Part shown: positions 4,464 to 23,503 of the stretch, in pieces | Numbering within the stretch: the stretch's first letter is position 1 | Layout of the letters: each line of letters starts with the position of its first letter | NCBI RefSeq assembly: GCF_010537335.1 | Contig: NZ_AP019711.1 | Location: 1,612,001 to 1,676,000 of the forward strand | Direction: 5' to 3' | Origin: Amedibacterium intestinale | GTDB taxonomy: Bacteria; Bacillota_I; Bacilli_A; Erysipelotrichales; Erysipelotrichaceae | Length of the DNA: 64,000 nt | Translations under genes and position numbers: made by a program | The notes under the pieces: model-generated | The model's input: only the letters and a program-made list of their open reading frames with translations | Told to the model about the DNA's origin: nothing | Databases searched by the model: none

Positions 4464-5252
4464 TTATAATCCCAATGTACTTTCCAGCAGTTTTTGAGAA
4501 AGTGTCTTATAGTAAGGATCTTTTGAAGAATTAAAAATCTGTATGCTGCCTTGTTTCGTATCATCACAAAGTTCATTTTTTTCAGCTAGAAGCTCTTTTA
4601 CATGACGAATCGTTCCCGCATTGCCATCTACGATTTGTATTCGATCTCCACATAGTTTTCGAATTGTTTCTTTAAAGAAAATAAAATGGGTACAGCCAAG
4701 TACGATACTGTCAATCTCATCCATATCATAATGTGAAAAATACTCACGAAGTGTGTTTTCCACTTTATCCTGCTGATCAAGTTCATCATGTTCCACCAGT
4801 TCTACCAGCTCAGGGCAGGGCTGACGATAAATCACATGCTGCTTACTGTAACGCGATAACAGATTTTCAAACTTCTTTTCTTTTAATGTAAAGCGTGTTG
4901 CCATTACTAATACATTCTGGTTTTCTTTTCCATCCACTGCTACTTTGACAGCAGGTTCCATCCCTATAATAGGAAGATTAGGATACTCTTCTCTAAGTTC
5001 TTTAACACAAGCGCTTGTTGCCGTATTACATGCAATGACAATAGCCTTTACTCCCTGATGAATAAAAAAAGCACAGATTTCTTCACATCGCTTTGTTATT
5101 TCTTCTCTGGTTTTTTCCCCATAAGGAGCAAAAGAAGAATCTCCATAATACAGATAATGTTCATGCGGCATAAATCTTTTTAAATCTCTTAAAACACTAA
5201 TACCACCTAAACCAGAATCAAAAACTCCAATTGCTTTTTCTTTTGCGTTCAC
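4464..5252 (-). CDS. murI: Glutamate racemase
   Basis: This enzyme interconverts L- and D-glutamate to supply D-Glu for peptidoglycan. The 262-residue length is normal. Family motifs are present: VFDSGLGGISVLR at the N-terminus, the first catalytic cysteine in ACNTATSAC (Cys75) and the second in LGCTHF (Cys187). The start codon is GTG at 5252, fixed by a strong GGAGGAGG site seven to eight nt upstream. It lies upstream of the M18 gene with a 52-nt gap and could be cotranscribed with it. Confidence 0.95.
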   Translation of the reverse strand: MNAKEKAIGVFDSGLGGISVLRDLKRFMPHEHYLYYGDSSFAPYGEKTREEITKRCEEICAFFIHQGVKAIVIACNTATSACVKELREEYPNLPIIGMEPAVKVAVDGKENQNVLVMATRFTLKEKKFENLLSRYSKQHVIYRQPCPELVELVEHDELDQQDKVENTLREYFSHYDMDEIDSIVLGCTHFIFFKETIRKLCGDRIQIVDGNAGTIRHVKELLAEKNELCDDTKQGSIQIFNSSKDPYYKTLSQKLLESTLGL

Positions 5253-14139: not shown

Positions 14140-14179
14140 AAGTAAGAACCACAAAGTTTAGCGACCTAGGTTCTTACTT
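14140..14179. repeat. 11-bp inverted repeat before the DUF6431 gene
   Basis: AAGTAAGAACC and GGTTCTTACTT are separated by 18 nt. A run of A on the left side makes it a terminator for leftward transcription leaving the element. Confidence 0.65.
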
Positions 14180-14198
14180 ACCCAAAGTAGGCATCTTT

Positions 14199-14678
14199 AT
14201 GATAACATTTAATAACTTTTCTCTCAAGTACATATCTCAAAAATCTTATGACGACTATATTTCTAAGATCGAACTTTCTTCCATCACATGTCCATGCTGT
14301 TCTCATCTTGGATTTCATTTTCATGCTTATTATAAAAGATCTTTACTTACACATAATGGTATTATTACCTTAAAGATATGCAGGATTATTTGTCCTCACT
14401 GTCACAAGACTCACGCCATCCTTCCTGTTTCTTTAATTCCTTACACCAGACTCCTGGCTTCTGATGTAATAGAAATCATTCTCGATCACGATACTGATAA
14501 AGATCATTCTAACCTTTTTCTTGATCCAGTTTACTTTTACTCCATCTTTCATCGATATCATTCCTTTTTACTGAATATTTCCTATTTCCCTTCAATTACT
14601 GATTTTTTCGTCTTTCATATTCATAGATTTCATAGAAATTTTGCTCAGTTGCGCGGCTTTCTTTTCATTCCCACATAG
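14199..14678 (+). CDS. DUF6431 zinc-ribbon protein of ISL3-like element
   Basis: This 159-residue protein has an N-terminal zinc-ribbon-like set of cysteines, CPCC then CPHCHK about 45 residues later. It matches the protein encoded in the second element (31233-31688): CPRC then CKEC, followed by a similar helical tail. Such DUF6431 proteins often precede ISL3-type transposases in Erysipelotrichia and related Firmicutes. The role is unknown; DNA binding at the element ends is a reasonable guess from the zinc ribbon. No strong ribosome-binding site is seen. The C-terminal third has few conserved features. Confidence 0.75.
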   Translation: MITFNNFSLKYISQKSYDDYISKIELSSITCPCCSHLGFHFHAYYKRSLLTHNGIITLKICRIICPHCHKTHAILPVSLIPYTRLLASDVIEIILDHDTDKDHSNLFLDPVYFYSIFHRYHSFLLNISYFPSITDFFVFHIHRFHRNFAQLRGFLFIPT

Positions 14679-14796
14679 GATTCCTTTCCTGCCTTCCATT
14701 TTGCCTTCATAATGACACTGTAATGATCATTATAGACTGGAGGTTGATGAAAACATCCATTGTATTTTCAGTTCTTGATGTTTTCTTTTGATTTTT

Positions 14797-16197
14797 ATGA
14801 AAAACGATACTACTTCTGCGTCCATCAGTGACGACTATATCCTTCATCTCTTTCATCTCCAGAAAGAACAGATAGATTCTTTCCAGGTAAATCATCAGGA
14901 TGATGGTGTTCATGTAAGGATCAAGCTTACCCCAAAGACTACTTCATGTCCTGTCTGCGGCTTTCCCACTTCCAAGGTAAAAAGCTATGTACATAAACGC
15001 ATAACACATTCCATGCTGAATACGGAAGCCTGCTATATCGATTACCAGGCCAGACGCTATATCTGCCCTGCATGTAATAAGACTTTCTATGAGGACAATC
15101 CTTTTACTTTCAAGGGAATGAAGATCTCTTTATTGACCGTATATAATGTCCTTCGAGATCTGAAAAACCCTGCCGATACATTTAAAAGCGTTGCACAGAG
15201 AAATCATATATCCTCTACTTCTGCCATGTCCATCTTTGACAGGCATGTCCAGATATCCAGAAGAAAACTTCCTGAATATCTGAATATCGACGAAGTCTAC
15301 AGTTTCAAATCTGAAAACAGTTCCTATGTATGTGTCCTTCTGGATTTCAACTCCCAAAATGTCATCGATCTTCTTCCAGGCAGGAAAAAGTCCGAACTCA
15401 TCAATTACTTTTCTTTCATTCCCCGAGAAGAAAGATGTGCTGTAAAGGCCGTATCTATTGATTTATGGGAAACCTACAGGATCGTCGCAAAGATGATGTT
15501 CCCCAATGCCGCCATAGCTGCGGATAAATTCCATCTCATCCAGGAACTGAACAGAAGAGTAGACAAGGTGCGTCTGCGTACGATGAATCAGTTAAAGAAC
15601 TATAAGCTCATGGATCTGAAAAATGCAGATGCAGCTTCGATAGAAAAAGCTGAAAGAATGCGTAAACAGTATTACCTTTATAAAAAATTCAACTGGCTTC
15701 TCTTCACAAACGATCCTGCATATACAGATCCAAATAGAGAAAAGAAATATAATAAAGTACTTCAGGGATACTATAACTATAACGATATCCTGCATTATAT
15801 GTGTTTGTATAACCCTGAACTTGAAGAAGCCATGAATCTGAAAGACAGGATGATATATTTCTATAAGAACAGTGATCTTGATAATGCAAGAAAAGATATC
15901 AATGAACTGATCAGTGCTTTCAGGGATTGTAAAGTACCTGAAATATCATCCTTTGCGAATACGATGACCAGATGGAAGACTGAAATAATAAATTCTTTTA
16001 TCGTCACGAATGAACATGGAAGAAAGATAAACAGCGGGATCATAGAAAACAGAAACAGGACGATCAAATGTATCAAGCACAATTCCAATGGATATACCAA
16101 TTGGAAACGATTCCGAAACAGAGTGCTTTATGTACTGAATAAAGATACCACTTATCACTTATACCCTAAGGAAGGAGAAAATGAAAATGAACAATAA
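14797..16197 (+). CDS. ISL3 family transposase
   Basis: This 466-residue DDE transposase has an N-terminal zinc finger (CPVCGFPT then CPACNKTFYE), a helix-turn-helix region and the catalytic core. Candidate acidic residues are Asp in LNIDEVYSFK, Asp in VSIDLWETYR and Glu in INSGIIENRNR. AADKFHLIQELNRRVDKVR is typical of the ISL3 family. The ATG at 14797 is used; a TTG three codons upstream is possible. The end overlaps the small third ORF. It looks intact. Its relative at 29693-31138 differs across the whole length, so the two elements are not recent copies of each other. Confidence 0.93.
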   Translation: MKNDTTSASISDDYILHLFHLQKEQIDSFQVNHQDDGVHVRIKLTPKTTSCPVCGFPTSKVKSYVHKRITHSMLNTEACYIDYQARRYICPACNKTFYEDNPFTFKGMKISLLTVYNVLRDLKNPADTFKSVAQRNHISSTSAMSIFDRHVQISRRKLPEYLNIDEVYSFKSENSSYVCVLLDFNSQNVIDLLPGRKKSELINYFSFIPREERCAVKAVSIDLWETYRIVAKMMFPNAAIAADKFHLIQELNRRVDKVRLRTMNQLKNYKLMDLKNADAASIEKAERMRKQYYLYKKFNWLLFTNDPAYTDPNREKKYNKVLQGYYNYNDILHYMCLYNPELEEAMNLKDRMIYFYKNSDLDNARKDINELISAFRDCKVPEISSFANTMTRWKTEIINSFIVTNEHGRKINSGIIENRNRTIKCIKHNSNGYTNWKRFRNRVLYVLNKDTTYHLYPKEGENENEQ

Positions 16198-16550: not shown

Positions 16551-17858
16551 TTATTTACTTAACTCTTCTGCTTTTTTAGAGAATTCTTTCATTTCTTTTT
16601 GTAATTGTTCACGAAGTATAGAAAGGTCTACTTTTAACTTTCTGTCTGAAACAACCTGCTTCCCATTTACAAACACATCTTTTACATCGCTGGCATTTGC
16701 GCTATAAACAAGAATAGAATACGGGTCATAAACTGGAAACATATGTGCAGATTCTAAAGAGATCAAAACTATATCTGCTTTTTTTCCAACTTCCAAAGAG
16801 CCAATCTGTTCATCAATTCTCAATGCTTTTGCACCTTCAATAGTCGCAATTCTCACAATTTCCTTTGCAGGGAATAAAGATCGATCATGATATTTTGTTT
16901 TTTGTGCTCCTGCAAACATCCGCATCTGTATGAATAAATCCAACGTATTCCCACTGCTCGCACCATCCGTTCCAAATCCCATAGCAACACCATTTTCCAT
17001 TATATCCTTTGCAGGTGCAATTCCTTTCCCTGCTTTTAAATTTGATACAGGGCAATGAGAAACCTTAACATCATGTTTCTTCATCAATTGTATATCAGCC
17101 TCATTTATATGAATACAATGAACTGCGAGAACATGTTGATTTAAACAAGAAATAGATTCTAACCATTCTATTGGTGTCATATTGTATTTATTTCTGAAAT
17201 ACGTCATTTCATAATCCATTTCTGCCACATGAGTCATCATCAAAGTATCATGTTTTTTAACAATTTCCATCGCTTTTCTAAAAATTTCCTCAGTATTTGT
17301 ATTTGTCGCATGAGGTGCTAACATAGGAGTAATAAGAGGATGATGCTTCCATTCCTCAATAAATTTTTCTCCTATTTTTAATGCTTCAACTGCATTTTTT
17401 GCATCACAGGTTGGCTGATCAATAATCGTTTCTCCTAGAACAGCACGTATTCCCATTTTTTCACAAGCAAGTGCTACTTTATCCATAAAATAATACATGT
17501 CAGCAAATGTTGTAATTCCTGATAAAAGCATTTCTCCTGTACCATAACAAGCCCCATAATAAGCTAAATCTTCATTCATACATGCATTTTCCAATGGAAA
17601 TAGAAAGCGCCGTAAACGATTAGGACAATCATCCTGTAAAGAACGAAAAGGAAGCATAGAAACATGACAATGTGTATTCACCATACCAGGAAGAACAAGA
17701 CAATTCTTCGCATCAACGATATTATCTATACTATCAAATTCTTTAGGTTTTCCAACATAAAGAATCTTATCATCTTCGATAACAATCTGACCATCTTTGT
17801 ATTCCTGCATTTTTTCATTCATCGTTAATATCCATGCATTTTTTATTAATGTTCTCAT
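16551..17858 (-). CDS. Amidohydrolase, MTA/SAH deaminase-like
   Basis: This 435-residue TIM-barrel metal hydrolase belongs to the COG0402 group. Metal and active-site motifs are NTHCH (His63, His65), MLAPHATN, MTHVAEMD, AVHCIHI, HCPVSNLKAG and GFGTDGASS. The closest named group by pattern is 5'-methylthioadenosine/S-adenosylhomocysteine deaminase, which turns adenosine-type compounds into inosine types. Other purine deaminases cannot be excluded. The start ATG overlaps the adenine deaminase stop as ATGA. As last gene of a guanine-riboswitch operon, it probably supports purine salvage. Confidence 0.85.
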   Translation of the reverse strand: MRTLIKNAWILTMNEKMQEYKDGQIVIEDDKILYVGKPKEFDSIDNIVDAKNCLVLPGMVNTHCHVSMLPFRSLQDDCPNRLRRFLFPLENACMNEDLAYYGACYGTGEMLLSGITTFADMYYFMDKVALACEKMGIRAVLGETIIDQPTCDAKNAVEALKIGEKFIEEWKHHPLITPMLAPHATNTNTEEIFRKAMEIVKKHDTLMMTHVAEMDYEMTYFRNKYNMTPIEWLESISCLNQHVLAVHCIHINEADIQLMKKHDVKVSHCPVSNLKAGKGIAPAKDIMENGVAMGFGTDGASSGNTLDLFIQMRMFAGAQKTKYHDRSLFPAKEIVRIATIEGAKALRIDEQIGSLEVGKKADIVLISLESAHMFPVYDPYSILVYSANASDVKDVFVNGKQVVSDRKLKVDLSILREQLQKEMKEFSKKAEELSK

Positions 17859-19534
17859 CGTATTTCCTCCACCATTTTGATTATTTTTTGTTTTGTCGTA
17901 TCTATCATTCCTTTATCACTTATTTTTAATTGTGGTGACACAAGTAAAGATAAAGTAGAAAAAGACATAATCTCATTATCATGTACATAACCTAAATCTT
18001 GCATTGCTTTACGAACATTATCAATATCTTCTCCTATTTCTTCAATGGTACGCTCACTTACGATTCCTCCAACTTCTAAAGCTGCAGAAGCAATTATTTT
18101 ATGTTCCTTAACAACGACATACCCACCTTGCATCTTTATAATTTCTTTTTGTGCCAACACCATATCATCTACATCATTCCCTAATACCATGACATTATGA
18201 TGATCATGAGCCCACGAAGTTGCGATAGCACCTTTTTTCTTTATTGTATTCCCTACAATACCATGTGAAATATTCCCATTCTTTCCATAACGTTCATACA
18301 CCGTAAGTAACGCATAATTTTCTAAATCCAAAAATCCATTCGTAACTGGAAGCCATTTTTGTATATGTTTTGTAAATGTTGAATGTGGTTCTATCTCCAT
18401 AATATTACATAAAGCAGATGTTCCTTTTAAGTTAATTTTAAAATCTTTTTTTTCAGCTTCACGACATTGAATAGATTGATAAAAATGTTCAGGAAATTGT
18501 TTCTTTGTTTCCTTTTTTGTTTTTATGACTTTTTTCCCGTTTTTATACACATCAGTAATATGAAACTTATAAATATCATCTAACATTATAAAATCTGCAA
18601 TTCTTCCCGGTGCTATTGTTCCTCGATCTTCTAAATGCATACGTCTTGCAGGAGTAAAAGTAGCGCAATAAATAGCCATTTCAGGCTTCATTCCCATTTC
18701 AATAGCTTTTTGTACCAATGTATTCAAATGTCCGTATCGCAAATGATCTGCCATGACATCATCTGTAACAAAACAAAAATATTCATAAAAATCATGTTCT
18801 ATTAAAGTCTCCAAAACTTCTTGTGTCATTGATTTTCCTTGAATTTCAAGGAACATTCCATTTGTAATCTTTTCTATAACACTTTCTTTTGTCTGATGTG
18901 TATGATCTGCACTAATACCTTTTGATATAAAATTTGATAATTCTCTACCTTTTATTTTAGGACAATGTCCTTCCAATGGCAATATAGGCCTTAATTTTTT
19001 ACAAATTCCAATGATTTTTGCGCTTAATGATTCTGGTTCATAACATACATCATAGAAATTCATAACCTCTCCCAAGCAAACGATTTTATTATTCATTAGT
19101 AATTCTTTTACTTCTTCTATTCCAATCGCACCACCTGTTGTTTCTAAGTTAGAATTTGTAGATGGAACACTAGATGGAATTCCGTAAAAAATATCTAAGA
19201 GCGTATCTTGAGATAAAAAGGAGAGTATTCCCTCTCTTCCAAAAACGTTTGCGATCTCATGAGGATCTGCTACAACGCTTGTAGTCCCATGCGCTAAAAC
19301 CGCATCAGAAAAACGAGAAGGAATACTCATTGAACTTTCTATATGCATATGAATATCCACTAAACCAGGTATCATATACTTTCCTTTACCATCCACGACA
19401 TATGTATTATCTAACATAATATTTTTTTCAATATGTGTAAATATACCATTTTTTACTGCTACATCTGTATACTCAAAAGACTTTGTAAAAGAATTATATA
19501 CCTTACAATTTTGAATAATCATATCATAATTCAT
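17855..19534 (-). CDS. ade: Adenine deaminase
   Basis: This 559-residue enzyme converts adenine to hypoxanthine and ammonia. Family motifs are HMHIESSMSIP (metal ligands His62 and His64), GTTSVVADPHEIANVFG, LEGHCPKIKG, SADHTHQT and the late SWAHDHHNVMVLGND. The length fits the bacterial Ade family (about 560-600). It lies 13 nt after the binding-protein gene and overlaps the next deaminase gene by 4 nt. It is controlled by the guanine-class riboswitch at 23392-23456, which would link adenine conversion to the guanine or hypoxanthine pool. Confidence 0.95.
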   Translation of the reverse strand: MNYDMIIQNCKVYNSFTKSFEYTDVAVKNGIFTHIEKNIMLDNTYVVDGKGKYMIPGLVDIHMHIESSMSIPSRFSDAVLAHGTTSVVADPHEIANVFGREGILSFLSQDTLLDIFYGIPSSVPSTNSNLETTGGAIGIEEVKELLMNNKIVCLGEVMNFYDVCYEPESLSAKIIGICKKLRPILPLEGHCPKIKGRELSNFISKGISADHTHQTKESVIEKITNGMFLEIQGKSMTQEVLETLIEHDFYEYFCFVTDDVMADHLRYGHLNTLVQKAIEMGMKPEMAIYCATFTPARRMHLEDRGTIAPGRIADFIMLDDIYKFHITDVYKNGKKVIKTKKETKKQFPEHFYQSIQCREAEKKDFKINLKGTSALCNIMEIEPHSTFTKHIQKWLPVTNGFLDLENYALLTVYERYGKNGNISHGIVGNTIKKKGAIATSWAHDHHNVMVLGNDVDDMVLAQKEIIKMQGGYVVVKEHKIIASAALEVGGIVSERTIEEIGEDIDNVRKAMQDLGYVHDNEIMSFSTLSLLVSPQLKISDKGMIDTTKQKIIKMVEEIR

Positions 19535-19547
19535 AAATTTGCCTCAA

Positions 19548-20597
19548 TTAACGATTTAAAATACGATTCCACTGATCTGTCCAATTTGCCAATAAAGGAT
19601 TTACAAATGTATAATCAATAGCTTTTGCATTCTCTGCAATTTCACCATATGTAAGTTTTTTTGCCTCATCTTCACTCAATTCAACTTTTGCATTTGTTGG
19701 ACCTTCATTTAATGACTTACTTGTTACTGACTGCAATTCCTGTGAAATTCGCCAATTAATATATTTATAAGCCATGTCCTTGTTTTTTGAATTAGCTACA
19801 ACATCAATGGTATTGAAATTTGCATAAGTACCACTTTTCGGCACTAGATATACAACATCCTGTGCTGCCTTTTGAATATTTGGTACGGCAAAATCTCCTA
19901 CAACTGCAGCTTTAATTTCGCCTGCAGCAAACATATTTGCTAAATCAGAAGATTTTGTATACGTTTTTACTACATTAGGTTTAATAGCTTCCAATGCTTT
20001 AAATGCAGCTTCACCATTATCCTTTTTAATATCAACTCCAGCATGATCACTTGCAATATGCACCATTGCTGGTCCAAAAGTAGTAGTAATATCAGGAAGG
20101 GCAATTGCACCTTTTAATTCTGCTTTCCACAAATCATCCCAAGAAGTGATTTCAAAACCTACAGCTTCTTTATCATAAACAATTCCTACACTTTGAATAA
20201 CATAAGCAGGACCATAGCCACTTTCAGATTGCATATTTTTAGCTGGGGTAATCAAATCCTTCAAGTTTTCAATTTTAGATGTATCCAGTTTATCAAATAA
20301 TCCTTCTTCATATCCTTTTGCTGCTGTAGACTGATTTAATTCTATTACATCGATCCCAGATTCTGGATTATTTTCCAATTTTGTAAAACGATCAGCTGAA
20401 TTTCCCAAATCTGTTACAACATCGCAATTGTATTTTTCCTCAAAAGGTTTAACTACATCATCATTTACAATATCCTCACTTAATTGGAATGTAGAAACTG
20501 TAAGTTTACATCCTTCTGTTTTCTCTGATTTAGATGAACAAGCACTAACAGATACTAGAAGAAAACCGCATAATAATAAACCACATAATTTTTTCAT
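19548..20597 (-). CDS. ABC transporter substrate-binding lipoprotein, PotD-like
   Basis: This protein of about 349 residues is of the spermidine/putrescine-binding type. It has a lipoprotein signal peptide with a lipobox Cys in VSVSACSS. The two-lobe binding fold has VIELNQSTAAKGYEEGLFD and the conserved YGPAYVIQSVGIVYD. The ATG at 20597 follows AAGGAGG; the upstream GTG-like start would overlap the ATPase gene end. The genome position between an ATPase gene and adenine deaminase suggests the ligand is a purine base, nucleoside or methylthioadenosine rather than a polyamine. This is inference. Confidence 0.85.
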   Translation of the reverse strand: MKKLCGLLLCGFLLVSVSACSSKSEKTEGCKLTVSTFQLSEDIVNDDVVKPFEEKYNCDVVTDLGNSADRFTKLENNPESGIDVIELNQSTAAKGYEEGLFDKLDTSKIENLKDLITPAKNMQSESGYGPAYVIQSVGIVYDKEAVGFEITSWDDLWKAELKGAIALPDITTTFGPAMVHIASDHAGVDIKKDNGEAAFKALEAIKPNVVKTYTKSSDLANMFAAGEIKAAVVGDFAVPNIQKAAQDVVYLVPKSGTYANFNTIDVVANSKNKDMAYKYINWRISQELQSVTSKSLNEGPTNAKVELSEDEAKKLTYGEIAENAKAIDYTFVNPLLANWTDQWNRILNR

Positions 20598-20620
20598 ATT
20601 CTTTTTATCCTCCTTAACCA

Positions 20621-21646
20621 CTAAACTAAAACAATTTTATGAGCAGGTAAATATAAATGCAATATACTTCCTGTTTCATACACTTTATTTCCATTAACTA
20701 AAAGTGTACCAAGCTTTGTAGAAACTTCATACTGATAACTTTTTCCAAGGAAAGTATGTACTTGGACAACACCCTCTAAACCATTTTCCAAAGCGGGATC
20801 ATCTACAATTTCAATATCATCAGGACGAATTGTAATCTTTGCATTTTCCTTTTCGCATCCTTCTTCTACATGAAACTGTTCTCCTTGTGCTACATAGATA
20901 TTCTTATTTTCACGTACAACATCAATGAAATTTTCAAATCCAATAAAACGTGCAACAAATTCTGTTTTTGGATGTGCATAGATGTTTTCCGGCGTATCAT
21001 ATTGTTCAATAACTCCACCATTCATAACTGCAACGCGGTCAGAAATAGAGAAACATTCCTCCTGATCATGTGTAACAAAAACTGTAGTTATACCTAACTT
21101 TTTCTGCAAACGTTTAATTTCCACCCTCATTTGAATACGTAATTTAGCATCTAAATTAGATAATGGTTCATCCAATAAAAGCAGTTTGGGTTCAATAACA
21201 AGTGCACGTGCCAAAGCGACACGTTGTCTCTGTCCACCAGACATTTGTTTTGGTAAACGATTAGCATATTCACTTAATCCACAAATTTCCAGCATTTCAT
21301 CCACTTTTTTTGTTATTTCTGCTTTATCCATTTTTCTCATTTTTAGTCCAAATGCAACATTTTCTCTAACAGTTAAATGTGGAAAAAGTGCATAGCTTTG
21401 AAATACGATACCAAAATTACGTTTATGTACAGGTATCTTTGTGAAATTTTCTCCATCTACCAAAAATTCTCCATTTTTTGTATCAATATAACCAGCAATA
21501 ACACGAAGCGTTGTTGTTTTTCCACATCCGCTGGGTCCTAATAAAGAAACAAGTTCTCCTTCCTGTATTTGCAAGTTCAAACCTTCTAATATGTTTGTTT
21601 TACCATCATAACTTACGCATATATTTTTTAAATCAACAAATGACAT
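20621..21646 (-). CDS. ABC transporter ATP-binding protein, PotA-like
   Basis: This 341-residue ATPase has Walker A GPSGCGKTTT (37-46), a Q-loop in GIVFQSYALFPHLTV, the signature MSGGQRQRVALARAL, Walker B LLLLDEPLSNLDAKL and the switch His in VTHDQEE. The C-terminal ~100 residues form a TOBE_2-like domain, typical of the PotA/FbpC class. It powers the permease pair encoded just upstream. An AAGGAGAAGG site precedes the ATG. It is the third gene of the riboswitch operon, with a 12-nt gap from the permease. Confidence 0.95.
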   Translation of the reverse strand: MSFVDLKNICVSYDGKTNILEGLNLQIQEGELVSLLGPSGCGKTTTLRVIAGYIDTKNGEFLVDGENFTKIPVHKRNFGIVFQSYALFPHLTVRENVAFGLKMRKMDKAEITKKVDEMLEICGLSEYANRLPKQMSGGQRQRVALARALVIEPKLLLLDEPLSNLDAKLRIQMRVEIKRLQKKLGITTVFVTHDQEECFSISDRVAVMNGGVIEQYDTPENIYAHPKTEFVARFIGFENFIDVVRENKNIYVAQGEQFHVEEGCEKENAKITIRPDDIEIVDDPALENGLEGVVQVHTFLGKSYQYEVSTKLGTLLVNGNKVYETGSILHLYLPAHKIVLV

Positions 21647-21658
21647 AACCTTCTCCTT

Positions 21659-22441
21659 TTACTTGGCAAGGGCAGAAATACCCAATGTTTTTTCTACAAT
21701 AAACATAATAAAAATTGTTGCCAACATAAGCAGTACAGATACCGCTGATACTGTTGGATCATAATTGTATTCGACATAGCTCATCAAAGATGCTGGTAAA
21801 GTCGTAATTCCTGGGCCACTTAAAAACATAGATACCGGTATATTGTTAAATGAATTAATAAATGCTAGTAAAAAACTAGATATGATTCCACTAGAAATAT
21901 TCGGTAATACCACTTTGAAAAATGCTTTAAATTTATTACATCCAAGGCTCCATGCAACTTCTTCAATAGAATAATCGAATTGTTCCAAAGAGCCACCTAC
22001 AACGCGAATAATGTAAGGCAGCACAACCAAAAAGTGTCCAAGTAAAAGGCCTTCATAAACAGGAAATTTCAACTTAATAATTACAAATTGAAATAAAGCG
22101 TAGCCAACCACAATTCCTGGAACTATCGTTGGTGATAAGAAAAAGCTTTTAATAATCTTTTTCCCTTTGATACTATAACGAGATAGTGCATAAGCAGCAG
22201 GAATTCCTACTATCAAAGCTAAAAGTGTTGCAATTAAAGCAATTTCCATACTTAATATAAACGCTTTTTGAAAAGATTCAGAATTGATTGCTTTTATAAA
22301 CCAGTCAAATGTAAAACCATGAATAGGAAAAGTAATTGTTGGCTCGCTTCCAAAAGCAGTTACTGCAATGATGAGCAATGGAATAAACAAAAATGCAAAT
22401 ACAAATATAGAAATAATACTTAATCCTTTATATCTACGCAT
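21659..22441 (-). CDS. ABC transporter permease, PotC-like
   Basis: This 260-residue membrane protein has six hydrophobic helices and the EAA loop for ATPase docking (EEVAWSLGCNKFKAFFKVVLPNI). It belongs to the PotC side of the spermidine/putrescine permease family, with a late VEYNYDPTVSAVS motif. It overlaps the preceding permease gene by 8 nt, a sign of coupled translation. Together with the PotB-like protein it forms the membrane channel. Confidence 0.93.
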   Translation of the reverse strand: MRRYKGLSIISIFVFAFLFIPLLIIAVTAFGSEPTITFPIHGFTFDWFIKAINSESFQKAFILSMEIALIATLLALIVGIPAAYALSRYSIKGKKIIKSFFLSPTIVPGIVVGYALFQFVIIKLKFPVYEGLLLGHFLVVLPYIIRVVGGSLEQFDYSIEEVAWSLGCNKFKAFFKVVLPNISSGIISSFLLAFINSFNNIPVSMFLSGPGITTLPASLMSYVEYNYDPTVSAVSVLLMLATIFIMFIVEKTLGISALAK

Positions 22442-23267
22442 TTATTTCACCTCTTTTGTCTAACTGCGCAGCTATTACATTCAACACTTTCATTACCACT
22501 AACGTGATAATTATCATTACAGCTGCAATCACTCCTGCACCAACCCAATCATTTAATGTCATAGCTCTTTGATAAATCAGCGTAGCAAGCACAAGAGATT
22601 TGTTTCCACCTAGCAATTGTGGCGTTGTATAGGCTGTTAGTGCCCCAGTAAACACAAGTACAGCACCAGTTAAAATTCCTGGAACGCTCATAGGAAGAAC
22701 CACTTTTATAAAAGCTTTTAGCTTGCTTGCCCCTAGACTCTCTGCAGCTTCCATCATATCATTATCAATATGATCCATAACCCCTACAAGTGTCATAATC
22801 ATAATAGGCAAAAACAAATAAATTGTTCCTATTAAAACCGAAAACTCTGTATAAAGCATACTAATTGGTTCATCAATTACACCAAGACTCATTAAAAGGT
22901 TATTAATTACTCCGTTCTTTCCCAAAATATTAATCCACGCAAATGAACGAACTACAGAATTTGTTAACATTGGAAAAATAGATATTGCGATTAAGATGCC
23001 TTTCCATTTAGCACTGCAGCGAGAAATAAAATACGCTGTTGGAACACCAAGCAGAATACAGACAAATGTTGCAATAAGTGCAATACGAATCGTTCTAATC
23101 AAAATTTCAATATAATATTCATCCTGAAAAAATGCCGTATAGGCCGATAATGAAAATCCATCTGGAAATATTGTTGGCCATAAAACAGATAGCAAAGGCA
23201 TCATCAGAAAGAAAATCAACAATACGATTCCTGGAAAAAGAAATACATAAGGAATTCTTTTTTTCAT
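22434..23267 (-). CDS. ABC transporter permease, PotB-like
   Basis: This protein of about 277 residues has six membrane helices and an EAA loop (MEAAESLGASKLKAFIKVVLP). It is the first gene of the riboswitch operon. Two starts are plausible: ATG 23267, six nt after a strong GAGGAGG, and ATG 23306, after AAGGAGAAGG. I prefer 23267 because the shorter N-terminus (MKKRIPYVFLFPG) is like other family members. The purine riboswitch terminator ends about 75-100 nt upstream. Confidence 0.92.
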   Translation of the reverse strand: MKKRIPYVFLFPGIVLLIFFLMMPLLSVLWPTIFPDGFSLSAYTAFFQDEYYIEILIRTIRIALIATFVCILLGVPTAYFISRCSAKWKGILIAISIFPMLTNSVVRSFAWINILGKNGVINNLLMSLGVIDEPISMLYTEFSVLIGTIYLFLPIMIMTLVGVMDHIDNDMMEAAESLGASKLKAFIKVVLPMSVPGILTGAVLVFTGALTAYTTPQLLGGNKSLVLATLIYQRAMTLNDWVGAGVIAAVMIIITLVVMKVLNVIAAQLDKRGEINA

Positions 23268-23342
23268 CGTTTTCCTCCTCGTCTTTATATTAGTTTTTAA
23301 AGTCATTATTCCTTCTCCTTGTCAAAGCTTTCTTTGAAAAGA

Positions 23343-23371
23343 TAAAAAAGCTTCTATATGATATAGAAGCT
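23343..23371 (-). terminator. Expression-platform terminator of the purine riboswitch
   Basis: On the minus strand the 10-bp stem AGCTTCTATA/TATAGAAGCT with a 3-nt loop is followed by six T. It lies 20 nt downstream of the aptamer, the layout of an OFF switch that ends transcription when ligand is bound. Confidence 0.85.
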
Positions 23372-23391
23372 AAAAGACATTTCTAATATCA

Positions 23392-23456
23392 TCATAGTCC
23401 GATAATTTACGGCTACCGGGTAGAAACTTAACGCACCATATTTGCGCCATATATGA
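23392..23456 (-). ncRNA. Purine riboswitch aptamer, guanine class
   Basis: Read on the minus strand, all conserved parts are present. P1 is TCATA/TATGA; P2 is CGCA/TGCG with loop AATATGG; J2/3 contains GTTTCTACC. P3 is CGGTAG/TTATCG-like with loop CCGTAAA, and J3/1 is GACTATG. The loop-loop kissing bases match the family. The specificity position in J3/1 is C (GAC, not GAU), which marks guanine or hypoxanthine binding rather than adenine. It precedes the PotBCAD-like transporter and adenine deaminase operon. Confidence 0.95.
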
Positions 23457-23474
23457 CTTATTAAAACCTTTTGT

Positions 23475-23503
23475 ATTATAACAAAAAACAATTTATTTGT
23501 ACA
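23475..23503 (-). promoter_or_regulatory. Promoter of the riboswitch operon
   Basis: On the minus strand the extended -10 TG-T-TATAAT (TATAAT at 23480-23475) lies 17 nt from a weak -35, TGTACA (23503-23498). It is placed about 18 nt upstream of the aptamer. Confidence 0.65.

Follow-up and report, generated by a model that had tools for sequence, protein, structure and literature searches.

Introduction

The importer PotABCD, of the POPT family, is composed of two permeases with BPD_transp_1 domains, an ATPase carrying a TOBE domain, and a binding protein of the SBP_bac_8 type. The PotD-family fold of the binding protein accommodates many small ligands, including polyamines, opines, GABA, iron, and phosphates. 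Known ABC importers of purine nucleosides are those of the BMP/PnrA type and Nup; these fill the role that is proposed below for a Pot-type transporter, but their binding proteins belong to an unrelated family. A homologous transporter accompanied by adenine deaminase (Ade) is found in the S. meliloti-type cluster, which comprises genes for a LacI-type protein, a binding protein, two permeases, an ATPase, a nucleoside hydrolase, and Ade. Riboswitches of the Guanine-I class, as found in the leaders of xpt, purE, and pbuX, combine a transcription terminator with an aptamer whose guanine contacts are named U22, U51, and C74 (PMC9295807).

A 2013 survey of riboswitch regulons (PMC3766115) includes a category for purine transporters, and PMC4052901 names AdeR as a regulator of nucleoside use. 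Database-level predictions such as AdeR may overlap with a purine-importer reading in rhizobia. In the open literature searched, no paper was found that ties a purine or guanine riboswitch, or purine uptake, to the PotABCD family.

The current study concerns a 64,000-nucleotide stretch of DNA from Amedibacterium intestinale, hereafter the window, in which a PotABCD-like operon lies behind a guanine-type riboswitch. The system shares the subunit make-up and the binding-protein fold of PotABCD, but differs from it in that the polyamine contacts are replaced, the binding protein falls into a separate clade, and both the regulation and the accompanying enzymes relate to purines. Its leader, unlike the Guanine-I leaders of biosynthetic operons or NCS2 permease genes, controls an ABC importer together with deaminases, and the riboswitch stands where the S. 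meliloti-type cluster has a LacI-type gene. The riboswitch class and the fold are known; the substrate branch is apparently unassigned.

Results

The operon consists of six genes on the minus strand (23306-16551), in the order potB, potC, potA, potD-like, ade, and MTA/SAH-deaminase-like; adjacent genes overlap, or are spaced apart, by at most about 25 nt. The genes and coordinates given in an earlier note on this DNA hold, apart from the start of potB, which orthologue lengths place more likely at 23267 (277 aa) than at 23306. The potB-like (22434..23306) and potC-like (21659..22441) permeases both carry PF00528 (BPD_transp_1); their best models were PotB at 186 bits (cut-off 348) and PotC at 132 bits (cut-off 326), respectively. 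The potA-like ATPase (20621..21646) contains ABC_tran and TOBE_2 domains, and the listed NCBIfam models scored below cut-off. The PotD-like lipoprotein (19548..20597; SBP_bac_8) is the proposed purine-binding protein. An ISL3-family transposase gene lies at 14788-16197, just past the 3′ end of the operon and on the opposite strand.

Adenine deaminase (17855..19534, minus strand) contains the Amidohydrolase domain, Adenine_deam_C (PF13382), and intact metal-site motifs, and reached 390 bits against TIGR01178, below the cut-off of 472.5. The last gene (16551..17858, minus strand) encodes a COG0402-type aminohydrolase (PF01979, Amidohydro_1), likewise with metal-site motifs, for which the nearest solved structure was the MTA/SAH deaminase 4f0r (246 bits). 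Because its NCBIfam scores fell below every cut-off shown (that for MTA/SAH deaminase included: NF012037, 232 versus 779 bits), the substrate of this MTAD-like enzyme is uncertain.

Upstream of potB, a purine riboswitch aptamer of the guanine class (23375..23476, minus strand) matched the RF00167 covariance model at 68.2 bits (cmscan, E 7e-10; gathering score 37). U22, U51, and C74 correspond to aptamer positions T26, T55, and C80, which were invariant in 29 aligned aptamers drawn from related loci and from the other purine leaders of the host genome. These contacts and a canonical J2/3 mark the aptamer as a member of Guanine-I; for the same reason, the Xanthine-II and 2′-dG variant classes were rejected. 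An intrinsic terminator at about 23344..23371 (minus strand) is formed by AGCUUCUAUA-UCA-UAUAGAAGCU and a U run, and the MFE fold of the leader comprised the aptamer and this terminator hairpin (z -2.5). A TATAAT sequence resembling a -10 box (23475..23480, minus strand) was recognized by direct reading just upstream of the aptamer. The guanine-type aptamer, with C at the specificity position, and the terminator that the earlier note had placed before the operon are therefore both present.

The 5′ side of the terminator can pair with the 3′ strand of P1 to form an antiterminator. When duplex energies were compared with those of shuffled sequences, this complementarity was well beyond the shuffles in L058, L063, L064, L066, L069, L071, and L072; the duplex of the window leader was modest (-9.7 kcal/mol, with about 15% of shuffles equally good). 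This comparison was taken as supporting only, since the window duplex was weak against shuffles and the terminator finder at times picked the antiterminator instead. Such pairing would correspond to the usual antiterminator layout of a ligand-OFF switch, the direction of switching being predicted from the layout.

Three further purine riboswitches were found in the host genome, and only purine genes lie behind them: purD, a purE-type AIR carboxylase gene, and a pbuX-like xanthine permease gene (L077). A skipping-rope RNA (RF02924, 51 bits; L075 9124-9205) lies just upstream of the purD riboswitch. The PotA-B-CD set that the same genome encodes at L117 retains the polyamine contacts, as does a second PotD at L116, and neither locus has a purine riboswitch. 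Among the PotD-like loci used as riboswitch-negative controls, flanks were mostly short, and wide flanks were available for L116, L117, and L118 only.

The binding protein was present in 19 of 148 genomes of the order. A recurring order of riboswitch, Pot genes, and ade in other Erysipelotrichia had been put forward in the earlier note as a check on its proposal, and such recurrence was found. Among 24 Erysipelotrichia/Bacilli-class relatives other than the window (order genomes with a readable 5′ end, GTDB contigs, and four wider-class genomes), the riboswitch directly preceded potB in 23, and the six-gene order was usually retained. Given that gene set and riboswitch are conserved across genera and classes, their arrangement is not due to chance. 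The riboswitch was absent at the locus of one close orthologue (L062) and also at L020. Ade was missing in L007/L059 and L092, where the MTAD-like gene was retained; the MTAD-like gene was missing in most of genus g23.

Four genomes of genus g23 have a potB leader in which one complete guanine-type riboswitch follows another (L070 12397-12620, L071 12846-13068, L072 13105-13328, and L073 6051-6275); C74 and a separate terminator-like U run are present in both copies. This doubling is unlike known Guanine-I leaders, and no guanine-guanine tandem was found in PMC5912903, a paper on guanine-PRPP tandems. Matches to the Listeria antisense RNA rli23 (Rfam) were also seen near the operon in g23 (L071 6255-6354 and L073 12761-12860). 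Two operons were interrupted by stops or frameshifts, one in the binding protein and ade (L073 8134-11665, genome G073) and the other in a permease, the binding protein, and ade (L074 7225-11832, genome G061); these are either decaying copies or sequencing errors. Downstream of the L066 operon, at a distance of a few genes, lies a xanthine phosphoribosyltransferase gene (14177-14755; 271 bits, above cut-off), and genes of similar size follow the operon in L065, L067, and L074.

The same six genes were found in 13 loci of Bacillaceae, 5 of which have the riboswitch. In the remaining 8, an inverted CGAA...TTCG pair, 34-35 nt from end to end, lies immediately upstream of a TTGCCA/TATAAT promoter and upstream of potB (L009, L013, L014, L017, L018, L019, L021, and L028, at about 5000-5160). 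Six of the eight pairs were found by pattern, which in shuffled sequence gave a mean of 1 match per 2 Mb, and those of L014 and L021 (one changed base) were seen by eye. According to PMC8789054, B. subtilis PurBoxes are 14-bp boxes with CGAA/TTCG cores, separated by a spacer of 16-17 bp and situated just upstream of the -35 element; the Bacillaceae pairs share this geometry, with the same 34-35 nt. Because the pairs match PurBox geometry exactly where the riboswitch is missing, another purine-linked control element, putatively a set of PurR boxes, appears to replace the riboswitch in these copies.

The window binding protein scored 403 bits (57% identity) against 4edp, the structure of a binding protein from C. 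perfringens ATCC 13124, and 66 bits against E. coli PotD. When its AlphaFold2 model (pLDDT 86.6) was compared with solved structures, the rmsd was 1.2 A for 4edp and about 2.7-5 A for other cluster members; Foldseek matched the binding-protein fold to 8y5i, 1pot, and 4eqb. The window protein and 4edp thus belong to one group; no functional paper on 4EDP was found in the open literature searched. Against the NCBIfam PotD equivalog model, the window protein reached 70 bits (cut-off 582), a cut-off that PotD-like paralogues of the relatives, mostly at 145-212 bits, likewise did not reach.

The polyamine contacts of PotD, which we take to be S83, Y85, D168, E171, W229, W255, D257, and Y293 (numbering verified on the 1pot alignment), were compared in an alignment of E. 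coli PotD, 16 PotD-like paralogues, the window protein, and 22 other operon-type proteins. At these eight positions, the residues of the window protein are, in order, N, S, I, T, G, N, N, and E. In 14 of the 16 paralogues, S, Y, D, Y, W, D, and Y occupy all positions but D168, the one contact exempt from conservation in this set. Among the 23 operon-type proteins, the E171 position is T (N in one), W is never found at W229 or W255, and the D257 position is N in 21. A maximum-likelihood tree grouped all 23 apart from PotD, divided from it by a branch with 100/100 support. With these replacements, the polyamine pocket of PotD is lost across the whole operon-type clade. Loss of these contacts is in itself no proof of purine binding, because the fold holds many small ligands.

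Plasmid-borne homologues of the transporter (32-50% identity) were found in Lactiplantibacillus, Deinococcus, Sinorhizobium, and other alphaproteobacteria. Those of L. plantarum (pMK02) and Deinococcus adjoin genes for adenine deaminase and an inosine-uridine-type nucleoside hydrolase (PF01156 in pMK02). Near the Qingshengfaniella and S. meliloti homologues lie genes for adenine deaminase, nucleoside hydrolase, an amidohydrolase, and a PRTase, joined in S. meliloti by an NCS2 permease, and the A. vitis and Martelella homologues adjoin adenine deaminase. The MTA/SAH-deaminase-like gene was absent from most plasmid loci, with nucleoside hydrolase in its place in several. Around three alphaproteobacterial homologues (Azospirillum and two Rhizobiaceae plasmids), neither adenine deaminase nor nucleoside hydrolase was annotated. 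The Azospirillum homologue is divergent, one of the three (L089) lies on a very long branch, and at a Rhizobiaceae plasmid locus that has no annotated purine gene (L085), tblastn located Ade-like pieces just upstream.

Near-identical transporter copies in Weissella pMKC05 (L082) and L. plantarum pMK02 (L083) lie beside ISLpl1 (IS30). The leader seemingly was cut by the IS element, which suggests that these plasmid copies may have spread horizontally. For C. perfringens, the evidence consists of published gene numbers: PMC6958937 gives adeC (CPE1268) and potD (CPE1269) in the same table, which covers genes whose expression differed between growth in liquid and on a surface. The consecutive numbers suggest that the two genes probably form one operon like that of the window, and 4edp is presumably the product of CPE1269.

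Discussion

We estimate at roughly 80% the probability that this operon is a product-repressed purine-salvage unit whose Pot-type transporter imports a purine. The proposal of the earlier note that the transporter carries purine bases or nucleosides gains support from three lines of evidence that agree, although any of them might have failed: regulation by riboswitches or PurBox-like pairs, the purine enzymes that adjoin the transporter even in distant phyla, and the loss of the polyamine pocket throughout the clade, in a genome whose separate PotD-type proteins retain it. When guanine and hypoxanthine are scarce, the 5′ leader would form the antiterminator and the operon would be transcribed. 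The PotD-like lipoprotein would then capture an external purine, presumably adenine, adenosine, or a related 6-aminopurine nucleoside, which PotB, PotC, and PotA would import with ATP. Deamination at C6 would follow, with Ade converting adenine to hypoxanthine and the MTAD-like enzyme probably converting an adenosine-type nucleoside to the inosine type. Hypoxanthine or guanine that builds up would bind the aptamer, stabilize P1, and free the terminator, so that the operon would be predicted to turn off.

It seems highly improbable that the operon instead encodes a genuine polyamine transporter under purine control, with the deaminases salvaging the methylthioadenosine that spermidine synthesis yields. 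The homology to PotABCD in subunits and fold, the MTA-deaminase-like gene, and the control of polyamine metabolism by E. coli PurR (stated in PMC4052901) would fit such a system. However, the polyamine contacts are replaced throughout the clade, which is distinct from PotD, and it is the host genome's PotA-B-CD set and other PotD that keep those contacts, both lacking a purine riboswitch; moreover, the partner genes in the distant relatives are those for adenine deaminase and nucleoside hydrolase, not polyamine genes.

If a purine is imported, its identity is less firmly indicated by the comparisons. An adenine- or adenosine-type substrate is most likely, since the substrates of the constant partners are adenine (Ade) or adenosine-like nucleosides; guanine, hypoxanthine, xanthine, and MTA are also possible. 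Import of guanine, hypoxanthine, or xanthine, sensed directly by the riboswitch with the deaminases as mere salvage neighbours, would accord with the pbuX-like permease gene under the same riboswitch class and with the xanthine phosphoribosyltransferase gene downstream of the L066 operon, but is rather unlikely given that the constant partners use 6-amino purines or nucleosides, not guanine or xanthine. Doubtful, too, is an importer of methylthioadenosine or 5′-deoxyadenosine. The earlier note had named methylthioadenosine as a possible ligand. In its favour, the second deaminase is nearest to 4f0r and persists in L007/L059 and L092, from which ade is missing; methylthioadenosine is possible but not favoured over adenine or adenosine, because the second deaminase is missing in most of g23 and from most plasmid loci, where nucleoside hydrolase is found instead in several, and its NCBIfam scores fall under every cut-off shown.

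Beyond the adenine- or adenosine-type importer proposed for the window, it is likely that the PotD-annotated clade across Bacillota, Deinococcota, and Alphaproteobacteria consists of ABC importers of purine bases or nucleosides with lineage-specific, purine-linked regulators: a guanine riboswitch, PurR-type boxes, or possibly a LacI regulator. The solved structure of the close relative 4edp makes a test of the ligand straightforward. If the proposal is true, a widespread annotation as 'polyamine transporter' would be corrected, the PotD/POPT fold would gain purines as ligands, and a defined route of purine uptake would be assigned to gut Erysipelotrichia, Bacillaceae, C. perfringens, and rhizobia.
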